NCBI GenBank assembly: GCA_017540175.1
Contig: JAFYBN010000014.1
Span: 1-39,009 of the forward strand
DNA length: 39,009 nucleotides
From: Clostridia bacterium
GTDB lineage: Bacteria > Bacillota > Clostridia > Oscillospirales > CAG-272
Direction: 5' to 3'
A program made the position numbers and the translations under genes. Below the pieces are notes generated by a model. The model did no database searches and was not told the DNA's origin. It saw nothing but the letters and a program-made list of their open reading frames with translations. Positions 2,967 to 19,704 of the stretch are shown here, piece after piece. The stretch's first letter is position 1; each line of letters begins with the position of its first letter.

Positions 2967-4116
2967 TGATTACCTCCACTTGTTCCGGTATGCCGGGTTC
3001 TCCGGGTTCGGCTTTTTGTTTCGTTTTTTTCTTCTTTGTTTTTTCGGGCTTCGGCGGCTGTTCTTTTTTGCGCGCCTCCCGTTTTTCGGACAGTTTTTTC
3101 ACCGCGTTCTTCACGCTCTGGGTCAGGGTGTACCCGGACGCGCGGAGCAGAATGAACGACAGCAAGAGGGAGATCACGGCGACGGCGGCGAACGCGATCT
3201 CGAAGATCATGATCACGGCCGCCCGGTAGTCGTACACCCGCGCCTCGTTCTCCCAATAGGGGAACTCGATCCGGTTGACGCTCACCCACGCGTAGGAGAG
3301 CTGCTTCATGTTCTCGAGGCGTTTGTTCAGCGAAAACCGGTCCGTCGCTTCGAGAACGACCGTGCGGGACGGGTCGGTCGATACGGCCTTGCCAAAGATG
3401 TTCAGCGCGAAGCCCTTCACGGCGTTCGGAAGCGCGGCTTCGAACAGCGTGACGGATTTCGACGCGATTTTCGAATACCCGGCGTAACTCATGTACATCC
3501 GGGGCGTGTCGCCGTAGGCGTATTCGTAGGGACCGGCGTCCGATTCCTTCTGCGCGATGCCGACGACGACGAATTCCTCGCCGCCGATGTCGACCGTCAT
3601 GCCGACGACGTTCTCCGCGCCGAAGGTCCGCCACGCGGTGTCGCGGTCCAGCACGACGCCCATGGGATTCGAGTCGTCGTTGAGGAAGCCGCTCCCGTAG
3701 GTAAAGCTGAGCTGATGAAAGAGGAAGAAGTCGCCGCCCACGGCGAGGGTCTTCGCCGTGCAGGACGCCTTCGGACCCGTTACGGTGACCATGTCGTCCG
3801 CTGCGAAGCAGAACGCCCACGAGCGCGCGCCCTCCTTCGGCGTGACCGCCGCCTCGAGCAGTTCGCTGTCCATGCGGCGCGTCCATCCGGCGACGTCGTC
3901 CGCTGTGAGGCCTGCCTCGTCCTCCGCGTACAGGGAGATCACGGCGTAGCGCTGCCCGTCGCTCGACCAGCGCTCGCCCGCGCCGAGGTAATCGAGCCGG
4001 CTTTTCATGCCGAGCACGACGAGCTCGAGCGCGCCGACGACGAGGAGCGCGCCGACCATGACGATGGCGACGATGCCGGACGCCTTCAGAACCTTGCGGT
4101 TAACCTTTTCGTTCAC
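2953..4116 (-). CDS. Membrane protein with MacB-like extracytoplasmic domain
   Basis: 387 residues with a transmembrane helix near residues 10-34, a large outside domain, a second helix around 305-330 and a Lys/Pro-rich cytoplasmic tail (KTKKKKTKQK). The outer domain resembles the MacB/FtsX periplasmic core: it contains VVLDRDTAWRTFG, then VGMTVDIGGEEFVVVGI, the conserved pattern in which a permease name-giving strand pair precedes 'vVGI'. True MacB permeases have four transmembrane helices and a partner ATPase. This protein has two helices and no ATPase domain, so it is more likely a structural partner than a transporter. The start is GTG, 8 bases after the adaptor stop codon, with a GAGG ribosome site overlapping that stop. 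The domain assignment is by pattern recognition only. Confidence 0.65.
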   Translation of the reverse strand: MNEKVNRKVLKASGIVAIVMVGALLVVGALELVVLGMKSRLDYLGAGERWSSDGQRYAVISLYAEDEAGLTADDVAGWTRRMDSELLEAAVTPKEGARSWAFCFAADDMVTVTGPKASCTAKTLAVGGDFFLFHQLSFTYGSGFLNDDSNPMGVVLDRDTAWRTFGAENVVGMTVDIGGEEFVVVGIAQKESDAGPYEYAYGDTPRMYMSYAGYSKIASKSVTLFEAALPNAVKGFALNIFGKAVSTDPSRTVVLEATDRFSLNKRLENMKQLSYAWVSVNRIEFPYWENEARVYDYRAAVIMIFEIAFAAVAVISLLLSFILLRASGYTLTQSVKNAVKKLSEKREARKKEQPPKPEKTKKKKTKQKAEPGEPGIPEQVEVINENP

Positions 4117-4124
4117 GTCGCGCC

Positions 4125-6644
4125 TCAGTTCCCCGCGAGCCGCACCTGCTGCCCGTTCGAGATCGGGGAGGTCGAGCTCGTGATCACGAATTCACTGCCG
4201 TACAGCCCGCCGACCGCAGTCTGCGTATCGTCGGACGCGAGCACCTCAATGGCGGTGCGCTTTGCCGTGTACCGCATGCCGAGCGGGGTCTTCTTCGATT
4301 CGACGGTCAGAACGTATTTGCCGTCGTTGTCCTCACGGATGGCGGAGTTCGGGAGCACGGAGTCGTAGGACTGGCTCCGGTCGCCGATGGAGAAGTTGAG
4401 GCTCTGCCCCTCGGTGACGTCGCCGGAAACCGTGATCACGATGATGCGGTTCTTGCCCTGGCTCTGCGGATCCGGCTTGATCTGGGTCACGCTTGCCGTG
4501 ATGTTCGAGTACCACCACGAATTGGTGACGGTGCACGGCGCGCCGACCTGGATCTTTCTCGCCTGCTCCGCAGGCAGGTTGATCTCGACGACGTAGCCCT
4601 TATCGGAGATTTCGATGGACGCGACGGTATTGCCACTCGTGACGGTGTCGCCCGGGACGAAGCTCACGGAGACGACGCGCCCGGCGATGGGGGCCTTCAC
4701 CTCGGTGGTTTCGGGAGCGTTTCGATACGCTTCGATCTTCTCTTCGAGGTCGGAGATCTCCTTTTTCTGTTCCTCGCGCTCGAGCGCGGTTTCGGTCTTT
4801 GCCTTGTCGTTCGTCGCCGCGGAGATTTCATAGCGTCCCTGGAGGTCGGCGATCGCTTCCTTCTTCGCTTCGATCTCCTCTTTTTTCGCCTCCATGGATT
4901 CCTTGTAGTCGTCGGGATTCTTGATCTTGCTCTTTTCCTCGGAAAGCTCCTCTCTCTTGTCGGCGAGCTTTTCCTCGATCTCCGCTTTTTCCTCGTTCAG
5001 GGCTTCGATCTGCGCTTCCAGCTCTTCGATCCGCTTTTCCCAGTAGTCGACCTGTCCGTTCAGGGAATCGAGCTCCGCCTGATACTGCGTGGCTTTTCCC
5101 TGCGCCTGCGCCTTCTTCTGCAGGCTTTCGACGGTCTCCTTCGCTTTTTCGTATTTTTCTTTCAGCCCGGTCAGTGCTTCGTTTTCCCGGTCGTATTCCG
5201 CCTGCGCCGCCGCGAGGTCGTAATTGTATTCGTAGTCGATCACGTCGTCGACCTCGGGCATGTCGATGACGTAGAGCTTCGCCTGCGCGTCCTCGAGCTG
5301 ACGCCGGACGGCGTCGATCTGCTCGTCGCGATCCTCCTTTGAGCGGTTGTAGGTCTTGGTGAGGGAATTGCATTGATCGTAATATTCTTTCCAAATATTG
5401 TCAAGCTGTTTTTGATACTGCTCGTAATACTCTAACAATGTATTCGAAAGCTCATAAGCTGCATCTGTTTCATTAAACTGACGCAAAGCCTCTCTAACTC
5501 TTCTATCTGTCCCTAAAAACACGTCCCAACGTTCTGTATCTCCATCAAACAATCCATTATTCACACAATATTCTTTGAACGCATTACCACTATTCTTAAA
5601 TTGATTCAAGTAGTTTTCTCTTGCGTCTTCAATGCTCTTTTCACGTGTTTTTTCATATTCATCGAGTTGTTCCCGATAGTCCTCCTCGTCGCGCGCCGCC
5701 TGTTTTTCGAGGGAAGCGAGGCTCTCCTCATAGCCCTTGATCTCCGCGGCGATGGTGTGGGCGCGCTGCATGTCGTCGGAGAAATTCTTCATCGTCTCGA
5801 GATTCTGCGCGAGCTCGTCGACCTTTTCCTTCTGGGCGTAATAGGCGCGTTCCGCCTGCGCCAGATCCTCGCCGGCGATGGACGCCTGCTGATCGTAGGT
5901 CAGGGACGAGGGGGCGTCCTCGTCGATCTCGCTTTTCGCGCCGGCGAGCTTGCCGGAGACCTCGGAGATTTTTCCCTGCAGCTCGGAGATCGTCTTGTTC
6001 TGAATGTCGGAAATCGACTTGTTCACGGTTTTGACGGCGCTTTCCTTGTCCTTGATCTGCTGCTGGAGGTTCTTGATCGACGCTTCGATGACCGTGGTGA
6101 CGTCCGTGCCGCTCAAAATCGCCCGATAGGTCTCTTCCATTTCGGCGAGCTCCGCCTCGGCCTTTTTGAGATCCGACTCCGCCTTTTCGATCTCCTTCTT
6201 CGCGTCGGAGAGATTCTTGGACGTCTGCATCTCGTTCACGCCGTCGTCCAGCAGGGCGAGCTCATACGCCTTCTTCTTCTCGGCGAGGTCCTTTTCGACG
6301 TTCTCAAGCTGCACGCTCGGACCGCCGGAAAGGGTGAGGATGACGTCGTCCTTCGACACGTAGTTCCCTTCCTTGACGAAGACCGAGAGCACCTTGCGCG
6401 ACTGCGGCATCGACTCTTCCTGATCCTCCTCGAAGATGACGCGGTAGCTCTCATTCGCCTTGACCGTGCCGTTCACCTTGACGGCGGTCGACAGGGTCGC
6501 GTACTGCGCGTACTGCGCCGACACCTCGGGCAGGGAGTGGTTCAGAATGGTATTGGAAAAGAAGGTGAGAAGCAGAAGGATCACGAGAAAAATGATCGCG
6601 AAATTCTTGATCCATGCTCTGCGGCTTGCGGAGTCCTTGTTCAT
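4125..6644 (-). CDS. HlyD/MacA-like membrane fusion (adaptor) protein with very long coiled coil
   Basis: 839 residues. A transmembrane helix at about 13-35 anchors it, followed by half of a lipoyl/barrel domain (about 45-110). A Glu/Lys-rich coiled coil runs from about 112 to 645. The second lipoyl half begins at VKAPIAGRVVSVSFVPGD near 648 and a beta-barrel follows to the C terminus. Adaptors of this family normally bridge an inner-membrane transporter to an outer partner. Most are 350-480 residues long, so this hairpin is unusually long. Residues about 327-428 are encoded by an AT-rich island and form a Cys- and Trp-containing, non-heptad segment in the middle of the coil, where the helix hairpin should turn. 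The start is preceded by GGGAG at good spacing. It sits between the sugar permeases and the MacB-like protein. Confidence 0.8.
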   Translation of the reverse strand: MNKDSASRRAWIKNFAIIFLVILLLLTFFSNTILNHSLPEVSAQYAQYATLSTAVKVNGTVKANESYRVIFEEDQEESMPQSRKVLSVFVKEGNYVSKDDVILTLSGGPSVQLENVEKDLAEKKKAYELALLDDGVNEMQTSKNLSDAKKEIEKAESDLKKAEAELAEMEETYRAILSGTDVTTVIEASIKNLQQQIKDKESAVKTVNKSISDIQNKTISELQGKISEVSGKLAGAKSEIDEDAPSSLTYDQQASIAGEDLAQAERAYYAQKEKVDELAQNLETMKNFSDDMQRAHTIAAEIKGYEESLASLEKQAARDEEDYREQLDEYEKTREKSIEDARENYLNQFKNSGNAFKEYCVNNGLFDGDTERWDVFLGTDRRVREALRQFNETDAAYELSNTLLEYYEQYQKQLDNIWKEYYDQCNSLTKTYNRSKEDRDEQIDAVRRQLEDAQAKLYVIDMPEVDDVIDYEYNYDLAAAQAEYDRENEALTGLKEKYEKAKETVESLQKKAQAQGKATQYQAELDSLNGQVDYWEKRIEELEAQIEALNEEKAEIEEKLADKREELSEEKSKIKNPDDYKESMEAKKEEIEAKKEAIADLQGRYEISAATNDKAKTETALEREEQKKEISDLEEKIEAYRNAPETTEVKAPIAGRVVSVSFVPGDTVTSGNTVASIEISDKGYVVEINLPAEQARKIQVGAPCTVTNSWWYSNITASVTQIKPDPQSQGKNRIIVITVSGDVTEGQSLNFSIGDRSQSYDSVLPNSAIREDNDGKYVLTVESKKTPLGMRYTAKRTAIEVLASDDTQTAVGGLYGSEFVITSSTSPISNGQQVRLAGN
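5362..5680. other. AT-rich compositional island inside the adaptor gene
   Basis: By hand count, 87 of 240 bases in 5401-5640 are G or C (36%), while the surrounding gene and the window are clearly GC-rich. Reading frame is kept across both edges. The island encodes residues about 327-428, the centre of the coiled coil. Codon choice switches to A/T-ending codons over the whole stretch and back again. This suggests replacement or insertion of this protein segment from a lower-GC source. Confidence 0.8.
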
Positions 6645-11368: not shown

Positions 11369-11462
11369 TGGATATCCCGCAATATTCATAATTTTATAAT
11401 CAATTTATTTTTCAAATGTCTCCCTCCGCTGCTGATTCCGCCCAAATTCTCAAAAAGATCGA

Positions 11463-11500
11463 CCCGAAGGTGTCCTTTCGGGAACTTTTTCGCTTTTTTC
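11463..11500 (+). terminator. Terminator-like hairpin in the leader of the serpin gene
   Basis: CCCGAAGG (11463-11470) pairs with CC-TTCGGG (11474-11482, one bulged T), followed by runs of five and six T. It lies about 40 bases before the serpin start. A TATAAT sequence at 11395-11400 precedes it, without a good -35 box. If transcription starts there, this hairpin would act as an attenuator. Otherwise the promoter lies after it. Confidence 0.4.
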
Positions 11501-11541
11501 GACGTCTAATAGGCAGTACCGAAAAGACGGAGGCATTTCAA

Positions 11542-12810
11542 ATGCGTTTCAAAAAATGGATTGTGCTGATTCTCGCGGGGCTGATGCTGTTCTCCTGCGC
11601 TTCAAAAGAAGATAGGACCGAAGATGCGGATGACACGAGTGAGGCGGCGGTCGGAACCGACGTAGTGACTGCCATCCCCCTGGCCGCCGCGCACACGGAG
11701 CCCTCTCCCAGGGAAGCGGACGACACGCTGCGCGACGCGGTGATCTCTTTCTCCGAAACCTTCTACCGCACGCTCGAGGCGGACCGCGACGGCAACGCTG
11801 TCTATTCCCCGCTCTCCCTGTATTACGCGCTCGCCCTGACGTCCAACGGCGCGCTCGGCGACACGAAGGAGGCGCTCGAGAAGGCCCTCGGGATCGGGAC
11901 GGACGAGCTGAACGCCTATCTGTACGCGCTGACCTCGAAGCTCGGCGAGACGGGAAGCTCGACGGTGAAGATCTCGAACGCGTTCTGGGGCAACGCGGAC
12001 AATTTTGAAGTGTCCCCCGACTTCAAAACCGTCGCCCGGAAGTATTACGACGCGGAAGCCTCCTCTCTTTCCTTCAGCGATCCCGCGACGCTCGCGGCGA
12101 TCAACGACTGGGTGAGCCAAAAGACCGACGGCATGATCCCCACCCTGTTCGACAGTCTTGACCCCGGGATGATCATGGCGCTCGTGAACACCGTTCTGTT
12201 TGACGGCGTATGGGAAGAGGAGTACGAGGAAAGAGATATTTTCGAGGACCGGTTCACGGTCGGGCCCGGTTCGGTCTCCCTCGCGGAATACCTCTTCTCC
12301 AAGGAGTATTCCTATTTCACCACGACGGGCGGCGTCGGGTTCTCGAAGGCTTACAAGGACGGATACCGCTTCATCGCGGTCCTGCCCGACGGGGACGTGG
12401 GGGACTTTGCCGCGAAGATGGACCTCACTGACATCATCAAAAAATCCGGCGAGAGCAGAGCGGAGTGTGAGGCCTACATCCCGAAATTCGAATTCGAGAC
12501 CGCCCGCACCTTGAACGACGTCGCCGAGCAGCTCGGCGCCGGGCGCGCGCTGACCGAGGACGCAGAGCTCGGCGGACTGAGCGCGGACGGCGTGAACGAC
12601 ATCATGATCAGCACGATTTTGCAGAAGGCGAAGATCATTCTGAACGAGCACGGCACGAAGGCCGCAGCCGCGACCGGGATTACGTTCGGGACCACCGCCC
12701 TGCCGGAACCCGTCCCGGAGGTCTTCCTCAACAGACCGTTCTTCTTCGTCATCGTGGACACGGACGGCATTCCGCTCTTCCTCGGAACGGTGGAAAACCC
12801 CGCGGAATAA
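11542..12810 (+). CDS. Secreted lipoprotein serpin (serine protease inhibitor)
   Basis: 422 residues. A lipobox (LMLFSC) anchors it outside the cell. The serpin fold follows, with FSPLSLYYALAL-like YSPLSLYYALAL, and ends in LNRPFFFVIVDTDGIPLFLGTVENP. The hinge of the reactive centre loop is intact (HGTKAAAATG, small residues), which is needed for the inhibitory insertion mechanism. Counting from the hinge Gly as P15, the scissile bond falls near FGTTAL. Small residues there point to elastase-like or subtilisin-like targets, but this is inference. Human gut Clostridia carry related inhibitory serpins (siropins), so interaction with host or bacterial proteases is plausible. I chose ATG 11542, preceded by CGGAGG, because the signal peptide begins there. 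It is transcribed alone. Confidence 0.93.
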   Translation: MRFKKWIVLILAGLMLFSCASKEDRTEDADDTSEAAVGTDVVTAIPLAAAHTEPSPREADDTLRDAVISFSETFYRTLEADRDGNAVYSPLSLYYALALTSNGALGDTKEALEKALGIGTDELNAYLYALTSKLGETGSSTVKISNAFWGNADNFEVSPDFKTVARKYYDAEASSLSFSDPATLAAINDWVSQKTDGMIPTLFDSLDPGMIMALVNTVLFDGVWEEEYEERDIFEDRFTVGPGSVSLAEYLFSKEYSYFTTTGGVGFSKAYKDGYRFIAVLPDGDVGDFAAKMDLTDIIKKSGESRAECEAYIPKFEFETARTLNDVAEQLGAGRALTEDAELGGLSADGVNDIMISTILQKAKIILNEHGTKAAAATGITFGTTALPEPVPEVFLNRPFFFVIVDTDGIPLFLGTVENPAE

Positions 12811-14041: not shown

Positions 14042-15316
14042 TTACTCCGCCGTTTTTCTCTTGCTCTCGACGCGGACGCGGGTTTTGTGGACTCCCTCCG
14101 TAAAGAGATCCTTCACCGAGCAGCCCGCGCGGCCCGAAGAAGCGCAGGCGCAGGCGCAGGCACAGGAGGATGCGCACGCGCACGAAGACGCGCAGGAGGA
14201 TGCGCACGAGGAAGCACAGGACGAATGGTGCGAAGAGCGGCTTGAGCTCGACGACGAACGCGGGCGGCTGACCGGCACGTTGACGACGTTGACGCGGATA
14301 AAGGTGGAGGGGGAGCTGCCGTAACGGTAGGTACCCGTTTTGGTATAGTTCTCCGGCTTTTCGATCTGGCTCTCCTCCACGACCTCCTTGCTCTTGACCA
14401 TATCGCGGCCGCAGTAGGCGCAGACGTCCTTGCCCTCTTCCCGCGTGCCGCCGCAGCCCGGGCAGGTCTCGTAATACTCGATCTTGGTGCGGACGATTTT
14501 CTTCTCCGTCGCCGTTTCGGTTCCGAATCCGAGGCCTCCGCCGATCCATTTCACGAATTTGACAATCAGGATGATCGGAACCGCGATCATCGCGATGAGA
14601 AATATGAGTCCGAAAAACACCGTAAACCCGTCCGCGGGTTCGGAATCGTTTCGTTCGTAATACTCCCAGGACTCGTCGTACTCCTCGCTTTCCTGACGGT
14701 CGATGTCAAAGGCAAACGCGTCGTTCGGATAGACGACCGTCATCGTGTACTGTTCACCCTCGCCGAGGGACGCGCGGAAGACGAGATAACCGTCCTCGAC
14801 TGTACAGTCGGGCTGCCATGCTCCCGCCTTGTCCGCGTTCCAGCGGATGGTGAGCGCGTCGACCTCCATCCCGTCGAACCACGCGGGCGTAAAGGAATAA
14901 ACCGTCTCCCCCTCGACCCATTTGTCGATCTGGTACATGTGGTCCTGCGTCATGGAGAACTCGACGCTGACCGTTTCGCCTTCGCCGTACGAACGGTCGA
15001 GATAGATGGAGAGCGCGTATCCGTTGTCCTCGATCCGGCTGACCGAGGGGCTCAGCGGCGTGATGTTTTCGTGGTACGGGTTCGGCATGCCGAGATCGAT
15101 CCACTCGAGCTCGCCGATCGAATCGTCAAGCACCTTCCAGTCGATGTGATAGGTCATGCCGAGGGACGCGTCCTCGTTGACGTCCACGGTGATCGTGAAA
15201 TCGAGAATCTCGTCGGTCGGCGCGGCGAACGCGGAGACCGCTGCGAAAAACGCGAAGAGCAGGACGAGGGACGCGAGAAGACAATACTTGAACGCTTTTC
15301 TTCGAATCGGTTTCAT
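14042..15316 (-). CDS. DUF2207-like membrane protein with zinc ribbon and Cys-Ala-Ser repeat tail
   Basis: 424 residues. Order: signal peptide (to about residue 30, ending AVSAFAA), an outside domain rich in beta strands resembling DUF2207 proteins (about 31-235), a transmembrane helix (around 260-285), a cytoplasmic zinc ribbon (CPGCGG...CAYCGRD), a Ser-rich stretch, and a tail with ten cysteines between residues 367 and 399. The tail begins HHSSCASSCASSC, moves into CACACAC, and closes with SSGRAGCSVKDLF. I chose ATG 15316 because AGGAGG lies 8 bases upstream; ATG 15322 is too close to it. The start overlaps the radical SAM stop by 4 bases (ATGA). The tail could bind metal or be the substrate of the radical SAM enzyme. 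Function unknown. Confidence 0.8.
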   Translation of the reverse strand: MKPIRRKAFKYCLLASLVLLFAFFAAVSAFAAPTDEILDFTITVDVNEDASLGMTYHIDWKVLDDSIGELEWIDLGMPNPYHENITPLSPSVSRIEDNGYALSIYLDRSYGEGETVSVEFSMTQDHMYQIDKWVEGETVYSFTPAWFDGMEVDALTIRWNADKAGAWQPDCTVEDGYLVFRASLGEGEQYTMTVVYPNDAFAFDIDRQESEEYDESWEYYERNDSEPADGFTVFFGLIFLIAMIAVPIILIVKFVKWIGGGLGFGTETATEKKIVRTKIEYYETCPGCGGTREEGKDVCAYCGRDMVKSKEVVEESQIEKPENYTKTGTYRYGSSPSTFIRVNVVNVPVSRPRSSSSSSRSSHHSSCASSCASSCASSCACASSCACACACASSGRAGCSVKDLFTEGVHKTRVRVESKRKTAE

Positions 15317-16713
15317 GTGCATGTCCTCCTGAGCGGGCATTCGCCGGTCATTTCGGAAGAATAATCCCGGCGCGCGGCGCACGCTTCGCTTTCCCAGATC
15401 GTCTTCCAGTCGTCTTTCAGCATATTGCCGAGCGGCTTGTCGGACAGCCAGCTCTGGCACGGCACGACGTTCCCCCCGGGCGTGACCGCCATATTGGAAA
15501 GGCAGGCGCCGCAGGACGGGGACGGGATGTTCAGCTCGTCGAAGACGCTCTGGGCGATCCATCCGGGCGAGGTGAAGGCGATCTCCATGCCGTTCTCATG
15601 ACAGTATGCAACCGCTTCGCGCAGAATTTCCTCGAGCTCTTCCCCGCTGAGCTGCAGCCGCTCGGATTCCTCCTTCGCGGCGTTCCCGGTCGTGATCATG
15701 CCGGAGCAGGTGACGTAGACGACGCCCTTGGCGCGCAGAAACGCCAGCGTGTCGGCGTATTTCCGGTTCAGGGTGCAGAGGGGCGTGTTGATGCTCACGG
15801 ACAGCCCCGCCTCGAGCGCGTTTTCGATGCCCTTCACGGTATCGTCCCAGCGCGGGGTTCCCACAAGCCGGTTGTGCACCGCGGGATCGCTCGAATAGAA
15901 GGTGATCTGCACGCTGTCGAGCTCCGCTTCGCGGAGGGAGAGGCAGTATTCCTTCGTGAGCCGGATCCCGTTTGTGTTGAGGCGAGAGATGAACCAGCGG
16001 GCATACCGGATGAGCTCGCAGAGGTCCTCGCGCATGGTCGGCTCTCCCCCGGTGAACGTCACCTGCGGGATCCCCGCCGCGCGGCACCGGTCGAGAATCT
16101 GCTTCCACTCCTCGGTGGAGAGCTCCTCTTCTTCGGCGTGTACCTGATCCGCGGCGTAGCAGTGCACGCATTTCTGATTGCAGTGCCATTTCCCGTCCCG
16201 GGTCATGGCGCTGACGAGAAGGTCCATACGGTGGGGGGCGTTCATGTATTCGGCGTATTCCCCGATGCTCATATAACACACGTCGGTTGTGACCTCTTCC
16301 CGGTACGCGATTTGACGCAGGGTCTGCCAAATCGTTTCGATGTCCCTTTCAATGCGTTTTTTCGAGAAGACGGGAATGATCCGCTTCACGTTTTCCGCAG
16401 AGCGGTCGAGGATGCTTCGGATGTCGTCCTCGCCGATTTCTTTCCCGTCGTATTTGTTCGTTTCCCGGATCATTTCCGCCAGCATGACCGCCCAGGCGAA
16501 ATTGACCGGGACGATGTCGGTGCCGTTGATGATCGCGACGCTGGGGTTGAGCGTGTTTTCTTCCTTTTTCGGGGGGATCAGATGAATGCGGATCGCGCCC
16601 GGTCCGTTCGGGTTCAGCGTCGTATGGAGGACTTCGTCGAAGGTGTCGTCCATATATTCGCTGATCCGACGCACGGTTTTTGTTTTCCTGAATAGCTTGG
16701 GAACGGGGATCAT
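15313..16713 (-). CDS. Radical SAM/SPASM peptide-maturase-like protein
   Basis: 466 residues. The radical SAM cluster motif is C178-x3-C182-x2-C185 (HCNQKCVHCYA), which holds the 4Fe-4S cluster that cleaves S-adenosylmethionine. TFTGGEPTMRED is the GGEP motif. The C-terminal SPASM region (about 399-466) has CGACLSN, NVVPCQSW, a further Cys in SEACAARRD and a closing CPLRRTC, fitting auxiliary clusters. Residues about 55-130, including NPSVAIINGTDIVPVNFAWAVM, look like a PqqD-type recognition domain that binds peptide substrates. SPASM enzymes with such a domain usually modify ribosomal peptides or proteins. The coupled downstream gene with a Cys-rich tail is the obvious candidate substrate. 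A possible -10 (TATGAT) lies at 16754-16759, with no clear -35. Confidence 0.85.
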   Translation of the reverse strand: MIPVPKLFRKTKTVRRISEYMDDTFDEVLHTTLNPNGPGAIRIHLIPPKKEENTLNPSVAIINGTDIVPVNFAWAVMLAEMIRETNKYDGKEIGEDDIRSILDRSAENVKRIIPVFSKKRIERDIETIWQTLRQIAYREEVTTDVCYMSIGEYAEYMNAPHRMDLLVSAMTRDGKWHCNQKCVHCYAADQVHAEEEELSTEEWKQILDRCRAAGIPQVTFTGGEPTMREDLCELIRYARWFISRLNTNGIRLTKEYCLSLREAELDSVQITFYSSDPAVHNRLVGTPRWDDTVKGIENALEAGLSVSINTPLCTLNRKYADTLAFLRAKGVVYVTCSGMITTGNAAKEESERLQLSGEELEEILREAVAYCHENGMEIAFTSPGWIAQSVFDELNIPSPSCGACLSNMAVTPGGNVVPCQSWLSDKPLGNMLKDDWKTIWESEACAARRDYSSEMTGECPLRRTCT

Positions 16714-16953: not shown

Positions 16954-19704
16954 TCAGTTATAGATCCCGAACCAGTTATGCATGAGCAGCCGCGCCAGCC
17001 GGGATCTCTCCGGCGGCGTGTAATACGAGGTCGCGTTCGGCGACGTGAACGCGACGGTCGTTCCGGCACGGTCGCTGCCGAGGTTTGCCACAAGCCTCCC
17101 GTCGGCGGTGTACAGATTCATCACGGATGTGACGCCGTATTCCTGCAGGCTCCTTTCGCCGGCGTACAGCATGCCTCCCTTGGTCCATGTGTTTTCGATC
17201 GTCACGATGAAGTCCGCTTCACCGGGGTCTGCGGGAATATTGTCCGGCTCGAGCGCGAACATCATCCCGTAGTCGATCTCCCACGCGGACGGCGTCGTGC
17301 TGCCGTTATAGTTCATATCACGCGAGAGAATGATGTATTTGCCCGCTGTCGAGCCGACCGAGGTTGTACCCGAGAAATTCGGGACCGTACCGCCGTATCG
17401 CGCGGTCACGGTGTGGAACGTATCGTCGACAAGCGCGTAGCGCGGCTCCAGATAATAATCGGATTCGATCAGCTGTCCGTACAGCGGCGCGATCACGCTG
17501 CGCGCGGTCTTCAGCGCGGCGAGGGTGTTCCTGGAGTTGCGTTCGACGTACGTCCCGCAGATATCCTCCAAAATCGCCATTTTGTTGTGATAAAGGGGAT
17601 TGTCCCACGACGCCATGCCGGCGAGGCATCCGGTCTTCACGAGCGCGGGCAGCAGGTTTTTGAGCATCCGCTCCGACGCAGCCGCCGTGACGACGACGGT
17701 GCTCAGCCCGGGCGAGTAAAACTTCTCCGCATCGAATTTCACCGTCGCGAGAGCCCGCTTCGCGAACAGCTCGTAGCAGTCGGCGTAACCCTGCTCGTCG
17801 CAGAGCTCAAGCAGGTCGGAGAGGTACATCCCTCCGTAGATCTCCCAATCTTCATCCGCGCCGTTATATTCGCCGATGAGCTTGTACGCACCCTTCGCCG
17901 CCGTCACGGGATCGGAGAATTCAAGCTGTATGATCGCGTCCATCCGGTCGAAAACGCTGCCGTCGCCAAGCGCGGCCGCGCGGAGCTTGGCGCCGGCGGT
18001 CTTGTCGTAACACTCTGCGGCTTTCGCCTTCGCGTCGCGGAAGTCGCCGAGGGACGAGAACTTCGTGTACGCCGTGTCGTAATCCTTTTTGTCGTAAGCC
18101 GCCGCCGCATCGGCATAGTCCTTTTCGAGCCGGCACTGCCGGGCAAGCTCGCCGCTGTCGCGGTAGCCGCTGAGCGTGTCGATGGGCCAAGACACGTCGC
18201 CGAACAGCAGCTCGAGTTCTTCGGCGATCTCCTCTTCGCTCATCCCGAGCTCGAGGAACATTTCGTAAAACTCTTCATATTCCTCGGGATACAGTTCCTT
18301 GAGGGACACAGTCTCCGTCGTACACAGCTCCAGAAATTTTTCATAAGCCGCGCCGTAATCGCCGCTGTTCATCAGCCTCACCGCTTCGGCGTATACGGTC
18401 TCGTTCGAGCAGATCTCAGCTTTTTCGGCGGCGTCCCTGAAATCGCCTAGCGACGTGAGAAGCTCAAGCGCCCCGGCATAATCCCCGCCGTCCATCTTCC
18501 CGAGCGCGTCGGCGTAATCGACCTCGGAACGGCAGGCTTCGAGCCGGTCGGCGGTATCGTAAAGCCCCTCCGTTCCCTCAAGCAGTTCGAGCGCGCCGGC
18601 GTAATCGCCGCTTTCCATCTTCTCGACGGCCTTGGCATAATCCGCCTCGCGCTTCGCCTCGGCGGCTTTCTCCGCGGCATCGCGGAAGGAGGAAAGCGCG
18701 TCGAAGGCGGCGTACGCCTTTTCGTAGTCGCCCTTTTCAAAGAGCTCCGCGGCCGCGGCGTAGTCGAGCTCTTTGGCGCATTCGGCGGCACGCTTCGACG
18801 CGTCGCGGAATGCGCCGAGCGCTGCATAGAGCTCACGCGCGCCGGAATAGTCCCCGGCTTTAAGCAGCTTTTCCGCCTCGGCATAGCTGATCTCGCGGCG
18901 GCAGATCTGCGCCCGCTCCGCCGCGTCGCGCAGCCCTTCCGTTCCCTCGAACAGCGCGAGCGCCTCCGCGTAATCGCCGCCGTCCATCTTCTTCACGGCT
19001 TCGGCGTAATCGATCTCGCGCTTCGAGGCGGCCGCCTTTTCATCGGCGTCGCGGAAGCTGCCGAGCGCGGTATAGGCGGCGTAAGCCTTTTCGTAGTCCC
19101 CCTTCTCGAAGAGCTCCGCAGCCGCGGCATAAGCAAGCTCGCTGTCGCACGCGCCGACGCGCTCCGCCGCGTCGCGGAAATCGCCGAGCGCTTCGTAGAG
19201 CTCGCGCGCGCCGGAATAGTCCCCGGCGTCATACAGCTTTTCCGCCTCGGCACAGCTGATCTCGCTGCGGCAGGTCTGTGCCCGCTCCGCCGCGTCGCGC
19301 AGCCCTTCCGTTCCCTCGAACAGCGCGAGTGCCTCCGCGTAATCGCCGCCGTCCATCTTCTTCACGGCTTCGGCGTAATCGGCCTCGCGCTTCGAGGCGG
19401 CCGCCTTGTCTTCGGCGTCGCGGAAGCTGCCGAGCGCGGCATAGGCGGCGTAAGCCTTTTCATAGTCGCCCTTCTCGAAGAGCTCCGCAGCCGCGGCGTA
19501 GTCGAGCTCATTCCCGCATTCGGCGGCAAGCTCGGACGCGTCGCCGTAATCGCCGAGCGCGCCGAACAGCTCGGCCGCTTCGGCGTACTTTCCTTCGGAC
19601 ATCAATTCCTTCGCCGTTTTGTAGTCGGACGACCTGCACCCGCCGAGCGCCAGCGCGACGAGCAAAATCAGCGCCGAAACCAGCAATTTGTATGGCTTCT
19701 TCAT
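16954..19704 (-). CDS. Lipoprotein with ten 41-residue TPR-like repeats
   Basis: 916 residues. The lipobox ends at Cys23 (LALGGC). Residues 25-434 are ten consecutive units of exactly 41 residues, each of the form D-Y-x-x-A...L/M...G-D-Y-x-x-A...L...F-R-D-A, like tetratricopeptide pairs of helices. Units 2-10 form three larger blocks of 123 residues, each holding the same three unit types in order. Partial units follow at about 435-461 and 520-560. The remaining part (about 565-916) is a globular domain I do not recognise, with SGTTSVGSTAGKYIILSRD and FIVTIENTWTKGG. Helical repeats of this kind usually hold protein partners. It has its own promoter and terminator. Function unknown; outside-facing scaffold or sensor is the modest guess. 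Confidence 0.8.
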   Translation of the reverse strand: MKKPYKLLVSALILLVALALGGCRSSDYKTAKELMSEGKYAEAAELFGALGDYGDASELAAECGNELDYAAAAELFEKGDYEKAYAAYAALGSFRDAEDKAAASKREADYAEAVKKMDGGDYAEALALFEGTEGLRDAAERAQTCRSEISCAEAEKLYDAGDYSGARELYEALGDFRDAAERVGACDSELAYAAAAELFEKGDYEKAYAAYTALGSFRDADEKAAASKREIDYAEAVKKMDGGDYAEALALFEGTEGLRDAAERAQICRREISYAEAEKLLKAGDYSGARELYAALGAFRDASKRAAECAKELDYAAAAELFEKGDYEKAYAAFDALSSFRDAAEKAAEAKREADYAKAVEKMESGDYAGALELLEGTEGLYDTADRLEACRSEVDYADALGKMDGGDYAGALELLTSLGDFRDAAEKAEICSNETVYAEAVRLMNSGDYGAAYEKFLELCTTETVSLKELYPEEYEEFYEMFLELGMSEEEIAEELELLFGDVSWPIDTLSGYRDSGELARQCRLEKDYADAAAAYDKKDYDTAYTKFSSLGDFRDAKAKAAECYDKTAGAKLRAAALGDGSVFDRMDAIIQLEFSDPVTAAKGAYKLIGEYNGADEDWEIYGGMYLSDLLELCDEQGYADCYELFAKRALATVKFDAEKFYSPGLSTVVVTAAASERMLKNLLPALVKTGCLAGMASWDNPLYHNKMAILEDICGTYVERNSRNTLAALKTARSVIAPLYGQLIESDYYLEPRYALVDDTFHTVTARYGGTVPNFSGTTSVGSTAGKYIILSRDMNYNGSTTPSAWEIDYGMMFALEPDNIPADPGEADFIVTIENTWTKGGMLYAGERSLQEYGVTSVMNLYTADGRLVANLGSDRAGTTVAFTSPNATSYYTPPERSRLARLLMHNWFGIYN
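18402..19509 (-). repeat. Tandem 369-bp higher-order repeats (3 copies)
   Basis: Three head-to-tail blocks of 369 bp lie at 19509-19141, 19140-18772 and 18771-18403. Each encodes three 41-residue units. The first two blocks are the most alike in protein sequence (for instance AAAAELFEKGDYEKAYAAY is identical in both), and the third has diverged. This points to stepwise duplication of a three-unit block. Such DNA can expand or contract by recombination. Confidence 0.85.

Follow-up and report, generated by a model that had tools for sequence, protein, structure and literature searches.

Most of the known radical S-adenosylmethionine (SAM) maturases act on small secreted peptides, the others on a few enzymes and enzyme subunits. 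In the passages of a review that treat these systems (PMC8172795), sactipeptide clusters generally carry protease and transport genes, QhpD is a radical SAM enzyme that makes thioether bridges in a protein subunit that stays a protein, and PapB is a SPASM enzyme that forms thioethers at cysteines spaced through a repeat. SkfB is described as a sactisynthase with an N-terminal recognition element for ribosomally synthesized and post-translationally modified peptides (RiPPs) and a Twitch domain (PMC6231123), and the His-Xaa-Ser system pairs a repeat motif with radical SAM proteins (as cited in PMC9062424). Here we describe a gene pair in a 39,009-nucleotide stretch of contig JAFYBN010000014.1 from a Clostridia bacterium (hereafter the window), in which a radical SAM/SPASM-type enzyme is encoded next to a membrane protein with a cysteine-repeat tail. 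The arrangement points to a resident membrane protein, as opposed to a small secreted peptide, as the target of chemical modification by the enzyme. We propose, with a probability of about 0.7, that the pair would be a self-contained two-gene unit in which the enzyme modifies the cytoplasmic Cys-repeat tail of its partner, most likely by thioether formation.

Both genes were intact open reading frames (ORFs) on the minus strand, at the positions given in the initial annotation, and all features of the pair described below lie on that strand. The gene for the enzyme, P0002 (466 aa; 15313..16713), whose assignment is supported by Pfam, shares four bases with the gene for the membrane protein, P0001 (424 aa; 14042..15316), the enzyme stop and the tail-gene start overlapping in ATGA (15313..15316). 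Residues 367-399 of P0001 (14120..14218) form a ten-cysteine tail, (CASS)3 CACASSCACACACASSGRAGC, with Cys at positions 367, 371, 375, 379, 381, 385, 387, 389, 391 and 399. The regular spacing of 4 and then 2 residues described for these ten cysteines holds in part: three 4-residue steps are followed by steps of 2, 4, 2, 2 and 2, one 4-step thus lying inside the 2-steps, and the last Cys comes after a step of 8. Nor does the protein end in GRAGC, as had been stated; 25 further residues follow (SVKDLFTEGVHKTRVRVESKRKTAE), and this segment (residues 400-424; 14045..14119) starts with an [ST]xK[DE] motif that is conserved in the alignment.

Pairing of the enzyme with the tail was near-obligate in the genomes searched. 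The enzyme search of genome contigs returned 87 relatives, 80 of which were kept, and that of 196 genomes of the family returned 14, the window included. The 94 enzyme loci (L002-L095, window included) contain three pairs of duplicate genomes (L003/L016, L005/L073 and L006/L088), leaving 91 distinct ones. A tail protein with a C.C..GRAGC core was found in 88 of the 94 loci (85 of the 91 distinct enzymes), and the six loci lacking it all run off a contig end. A stricter mechanical test gave 86 of 94, missing these six together with L082, which has an Arg in the repeat, and L087, a broken locus that is tail-positive in the count of 88 and omitted from the set of 86 pairs used for positions. In L087 the enzyme match stops after residue 322 and a tail remnant lies in a 74-aa ORF, which points to a deletion or misassembly. 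All 86 position-checked pairs were same-strand, with the tail gene upstream in three (L083, L090 and L092), tail-gene start positions being estimates; L092 carries tandem tail genes at 4039-4965 and ~5016-5963 beside one enzyme gene, the second with Tyr in place of one Cys. The pair also occurs in a named isolate, Roseburia inulinivorans DSM 16841 (L086).

Searched independently in the 196 family genomes, the tail gave 15 matches. Both genes were present in 13 genomes, the enzyme alone in one, the tail alone in two and neither in 180 (Fisher p = 2e-17), and in the three single-gene genomes the contig stops where the partner is expected. A tail profile run against 394 genomes of the order gave nine matches, seven with the enzyme adjoining (window included), one with the tail at a contig end (G462) and one due to chance (L105), while 299 genomes of the phylum yielded six, comprising the window, four with a distant enzyme adjoining and another chance match (L110). 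These two chance matches, a 53-aa frame in L105 and a 64-aa frame with a stop in L110, were dropped before counting. The initial annotation had named co-occurrence of the two genes as a check and a tail gene common without the enzyme as an argument against their linkage; the co-occurrence was confirmed, and the only exceptions were at contig ends.

The pairing also extended well beyond the window's group (group 1), since in three distant groups related enzymes are paired with other Cys-repeat tails, namely CACACACACASSGGCT, CVSCACACVSCACACACAGG(R/G)GAGC and (CHSA)n. The enzymes of group 2 (L111-L114) are 28-32% identical to that of the window and are preceded by a membrane protein of ~475-500 residues ending SSCACACACACASSGGCT (GSCACACACACAGGGGCT in L113). 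In group 3 (L177-L186) the tail, GC.CVSCACACVSCACACACAGG[RG]GAGC, comes after a Gly-rich stretch, and where the flanks reach, the next stretches look TPM-like and LemA-like. Pfam recognised TPM (8.9e-9) in L177, where the protein is fused, and LemA (1.1e-13) in L180; in L178, whose TPM-like protein is separate, it gave that protein no match at E up to 0.5. Because a TPM-like part follows the tail within one ORF in L177 (L177:2367-4439 (-)), L179 and L183, Pfam-confirmed as TPM in L177, the Cys-repeat tail need not be C-terminal. Group 4 (L189-L191) has a (CHSA)n tail ending CVSGGAR, with the enzyme gene overlapping the end of the tail gene; in one member (L190:1933-3632) the membrane protein is split by a frame change in the assembly.

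An enzyme search of 398 phylum genomes found 82 with a match at 1e-40; in 15 of these genomes the match was at 1e-100 or stronger and spanned most of the N-terminal domain. A Cys-repeat tail was present in 14 of these 15 strong matches (cut by the contig end inside the tail in G777), G909 (L182) having unread bases there, and in all three group-4 genomes (1e-59 to 1e-60). The other 64 weaker matches were confined to the radical SAM core and left out of the family count. None of 12 generic radical SAM loci drawn from these 64, and none of 25 PqqD loci, had a Cys-repeat tail within control loci that were short (2.3-3.9 kb). A group-3 tail profile matched nine of the 398 genomes, all of them enzyme holders, and none of the other 389; the profile was built from eight of those nine, so its positives are circular and its value lies in the lack of matches elsewhere. 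In a tree of 51 enzymes, the 39 tail-associated ones fell on one side of a branch with support 92/97, and the tail groups, named by eye from the tails, clustered on the enzyme tree (10 changes for 10 groups; shuffled mean 36.8). Radical SAM genes with a PqqD-type N-terminus from several genomes of the window's genus (L136-L139, L141 and L142), which we take to be SCIFF maturases, are represented by three rows in the tree and branch apart from the tail enzymes.

Conservation within the membrane protein was concentrated in the tail. In an alignment of 30 proteins, with gaps scored as mismatch, mean column identity was 92% for the core 20 residues, 55% for both the outside domain and the ribbon stretch, 45% for the linker and 31% for the end, the best conserved 20-residue stretch being the core CACACACAxxGRAGC. 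Among 84 distinct sequences, the core Ala at the three between-Cys positions was kept in 84, 84 and 83, as invariant as the core Cys, and the Arg and Gly of GRAGC were kept in all 84. All synonymous codons occur for these conserved Ala, Arg and Gly residues, as counted with the window excluded and identical sequences merged. A core invariant in protein and free in its codons indicates that selection acts on the protein and not on a DNA repeat. Over 85 distinct tail proteins, the 60-residue stretch that closes with GRAGC contained 6 to 11 Cys.

The hydrophobic stretches of P0001, at residues 12-30 and 233-251, agree at the level of hydropathy with the signal peptide, outside domain and single membrane helix assigned to it earlier. 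They delimit a signal peptide or first hydrophobic segment (residues 1-31; 15224..15316), an outside domain that Pfam searches of the protein and its relatives mark as distantly DUF2207-like (residues 32-228; 14633..15223) and a predicted membrane helix with positive residues on the tail side (residues 233-251; 14564..14620). A helix precedes the tail in all 85 distinct tail proteins by simple hydropathy, with no trained predictor, and 80 of them carry charge that favours a tail on the cytoplasmic side; the tail is thus predicted to lie in the cytoplasm, in keeping with the topology first assigned. A zinc-ribbon-like CxxC...CxxC pattern (residues 285-302; 14411..14464), with pairs at residues 285 and 299, is separated from the tail by a Ser-rich linker. 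As for the zinc ribbon reported there, the CxxC pattern is present, in 70 of the 85 tail proteins (window included), but the Pfam ribbon matched only 4 of 30 aligned relatives and did not match P0001 at E up to 1; because the pattern is missing in 15 of 85, a zinc ribbon is not required.

For P0001, Pfam gave no family above cut-off, NCBIfam a single model below cut-off and the PDB no relative at E up to 1, and none of 30 tail proteins matched any NCBIfam model at E 0.001. DUF2207 likeness was seen at E up to 0.01 in 5 of 30 tail proteins, with the relative in L098 reaching 26.4 bits, above the cut-off. In the window genome, P0001 was the sole DUF2207-like match at E up to 0.1 (E 0.05), and no LemA match was obtained at E up to 0.01.

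In the enzyme, Pfam identified Radical_SAM (PF04055; E 2.9e-24, 86.5 bits against a cut-off of 29.5) and SPASM (PF13186; E 2.2e-7, 31.5 bits against 21.5), and the CxxxCxxC cluster motif (C178, C182 and C185; residues 178-185; 16159..16182) was invariant in all 32 aligned enzymes. The C-terminal auxiliary cluster region, located by Pfam and alignment (15337..15513), contains C401, C404, C419, C445 and C459, of which C401, C419 and C459 are kept in the window's group and C404 and C445 nearly always. Members of this group lack the C-x2-C-x5-C-x3-C SPASM ending that occurs in members of groups 2-4, and the region looks Twitch-like for this reason. The earlier description as a radical SAM/SPASM enzyme with a CxxxCxxC cluster thus stands, but the extra SPASM cysteines are only partial, the second cluster motif being absent. 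The closest solved structure was SkfB (264 profile positions aligned, E 2.1e-19), and the PDB matches also included anaerobic sulfatase maturase, PqqE, BtrN and 5wgg, which we take to be CteB. None of the 25 best of 67 NCBIfam models reached its cut-off, including TIGR04403, the SkfB model (51.5 against 300 bits), and HxsC (58.8 against 267.9 bits); QhpD was absent among these 25, and no direct QhpD comparison was made. A role in anti-phage defence was rejected, as PADLOC gave three viperin-type matches that covered only part of the radical SAM core of the enzyme and none for the tail protein.

The surroundings of the pair were compared in the window and 59 further loci, 60 in all and each of at least 8 kb; upstream sequence of at least 4 kb was available in 49 of these 59, and as much downstream sequence in 49. 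When ORFs of at least 100 aa were clustered, the enzyme and the tail protein (57 loci each) were the only coding-strand families recurring in at least five of the 60 loci, and no protease, transporter or immunity gene family did so. This lack of recurring protease, transport or immunity genes sets the pair apart from secreted radical SAM peptides. One further cluster consisted of five opposite-strand ORFs from five loci, whose centres lie no more than 2 kb from the enzyme. In the window itself, a serpin-family protease inhibitor lies near the pair (11416-12810 (+), Pfam 1.5e-72) and showed no recurrence beside the pair in this clustering. Upstream of the enzyme, a putative 916-residue lipoprotein with ~40-residue repeats is encoded on the same strand (16954-19704 (-)), for which neither Pfam nor NCBIfam gave a family above cut-off.

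A phage origin of the pair was also rejected, since the enzyme query gave no relative in viral contigs, and a plasmid search gave one partial match of 32% identity. The tail pattern matched a single viral contig, L096, by chance and in the wrong frame of a gene whose product (L096:3626-7264 (+), 1212 aa) was identified by eye as adenylosuccinate synthetase and appears, again by eye, to carry two intein-type inserts. A record labelled 'Bacteriophage sp.' (L192, MT837216.1, UNVERIFIED, 7.4 kb, human faeces) holds the pair amid genes that look bacterial by eye and is probably a bacterial scaffold.

In the mechanism we propose, the membrane protein would insert so that its 200-residue domain faces outwards and its C-terminal tail reaches into the cytoplasm, where the translationally coupled enzyme would bind the tail, perhaps through its N-terminal domain, and modify the Cys-Ala repeat. 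The most likely product would be a ladder of intramolecular thioethers, each linking the sulfur of a Cys to a carbon in an Ala or Ser nearby, in the manner of a sactisynthase. The product would stay a membrane protein, as nothing found suggests excision or export. The tail is likely to be the substrate of the enzyme, and we regard thioether formation as moderately likely to be the chemistry. It is the most economical reading because Cys is the main reactive invariant side chain, Ala and Ser stand beside it and SkfB is the nearest structure. Ala can accept a thioether, as noted for trn-beta and ruminococcin C (PMC8172795).

The tail could instead be an unmodified metal- or cluster-binding module, metallothionein-like, with the enzyme acting elsewhere or drawing clusters or reductant from it. 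Its CxC motifs and the 6 to 11 Cys in the 60 residues up to GRAGC are typical metal ligands, and a CxxC...CxxC ribbon pattern stands ahead of the tail in 70 of 85 proteins. However, metal sites tolerate change between ligands, and here the between-Cys Ala (84, 84 and 83 of 84) and the GRAGC Arg and Gly (84 of 84) hardly change; the ribbon is dispensable, and a tail without the enzyme, which should then be met often, was not found in the samples searched, contig ends apart. We judge this explanation unlikely. Even less probable, to our minds a long shot, is that the membrane protein anchors or helps to export either the enzyme or a small peptide from a gene elsewhere, with the tail only docking the enzyme: tight translational coupling and a cytoplasmic tail would fit, but a docking site needs no ten Cys in register, and no other coding-strand family of ORFs of at least 100 aa recurs in at least five of 60 loci, a size limit at which a small peptide gene could be missed.

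An alternative we take more seriously, while still finding it doubtful, accepts the tail as substrate and replaces the thioether by other chemistry, such as Cys oxidation, Ala epimerisation or C-C bond formation. SPASM enzymes catalyse diverse reactions, and the PDB matches included PqqE, BtrN and anaerobic sulfatase maturase, an enzyme of Cys or Ser oxidation. Repeat peptides can also receive unexpected chemistry, a precedent being the cyclopropylglycine formed in TVGG repeats (PMC9062424). On the other hand, the tail consists mostly of Cys, Ala, Ser and Gly, with His in group 4; the four groups share Cys as a reactive side chain, and SkfB is the nearest solved relative.

Several observations weigh against thioether modification of the tail by its partner enzyme. 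The N-terminal domain of the enzyme (about residues 28-135; 16309..16632), a candidate RiPP-recognition element (RRE) delimited by alignment and hhalign, had been called PqqD-like; directly this likeness failed, with hhalign probabilities of 3.9% for group 1 against PqqD (4.6% with another cut) and no Pfam PqqD match at E up to 1, and it was reached only transitively, through a chain from group 1 to group 3 (99.4%), group 3 to group 2 (84.8%) and group 2 to PqqD (69.4%). Short cuts through this chain were negative, at 2.0% for group 1 against group 2 and 2.5% for group 3 against PqqD. The domain of group 4 gave only 0.1-1.5% against groups 1-3, and 25.4% against PqqD (PF05402 E 0.16). With the chain positive but the direct comparisons low, and with neither hhalign nor Pfam detecting an RRE directly in the window's enzyme, an RRE function is plausible but unproven. 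The branch uniting the tail enzymes, at 92/97, stays below the mark the program stars, in a tree with few outgroups and a long-branch warning. The match of P0001 to DUF2207 (PF09972) is below the gathering cut-off (13.3 against 24.4 bits). The tail poorly resembles known precursor peptides, having no leader and belonging to a 424-residue membrane protein, and the clustering of neighbours was confined to ORFs of at least 100 aa, so that a small peptide gene could be missed. Since the outside domain is also conserved (55%), the enzyme could have another target, and co-conservation would equally be expected if the enzyme needs the tail merely as a scaffold or cluster donor. Both the modification and its thioether nature are, moreover, read from sequence.

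On a broader reading, which we hold at even odds, this radical SAM family, with at least four divergent groups in the one phylum searched, would be previously undescribed and would equip the cytoplasmic tails of resident DUF2207-like membrane proteins with crosslinked ladders of Cys-Ala or Cys-His-Ser-Ala, the proteins themselves being neither excised nor exported. No description of such an enzyme-tail pair was found in the open-licence literature or the family libraries searched; as far as we found, neither the two-gene unit nor this type of substrate has been described before. Enzymes of this class, and the concept of a maturase, are already known. If true, radical SAM chemistry would extend to the inner face of the cell envelope in common gut anaerobes, and DUF2207-like proteins would gain a concrete biochemical handle. 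The repeat tail would be an attractive test substrate, being short, regular and easily made as a peptide. More speculatively, the role of the finished tail may lie in the envelope or in stress, as with other DUF2207-type proteins; by way of example, a DUF2207 protein of Streptococcus mutans is reported to affect acid and peroxide tolerance and biofilm (PMC10457818).

Compared with known systems, the pair resembles the sporulation killing factor system SkfB/SkfA in combining a radical SAM core with a Twitch-like auxiliary region, but the substrate of SkfB is a small peptide, whereas the partner in the window is a membrane protein. More generally, it departs from radical SAM RiPP systems of the sactipeptide and ranthipeptide types in having no small leader-bearing precursor, its partner being a 424-aa membrane protein. 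The ranthipeptide maturases, PapB and the SCIFF maturase CteB, are SPASM enzymes that make thioethers at Cys spaced through a repeat, as proposed here; unlike the enzyme studied here, SCIFF-like genes fall on a separate branch, and the 25 PqqD loci, these included, had no tail neighbour. The DUF2207, TPM and LemA envelope proteins share with the pair a distantly DUF2207-like outside domain and, in group 3, a position beside TPM-like and LemA genes. The window protein differs in scoring below the DUF2207 cut-off, and we know of no ordinary DUF2207 family member with a Cys-repeat tail or a radical SAM partner. Like the His-Xaa-Ser system (HxsA, HxsB and HxsC), in which HxsA is presumably a protein with a repeat tail, the pair joins a repeat motif to a radical SAM enzyme; the repeat is another one, and the HxsC model is below cut-off. 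In QhpD/QhpC, compared by description and not by sequence, the thioether substrate stays a protein, as proposed here. QhpC is, we believe, a small enzyme subunit with several partner genes, whereas the unit described here consists of two genes, with a membrane protein carrying a repeat tail as the partner.

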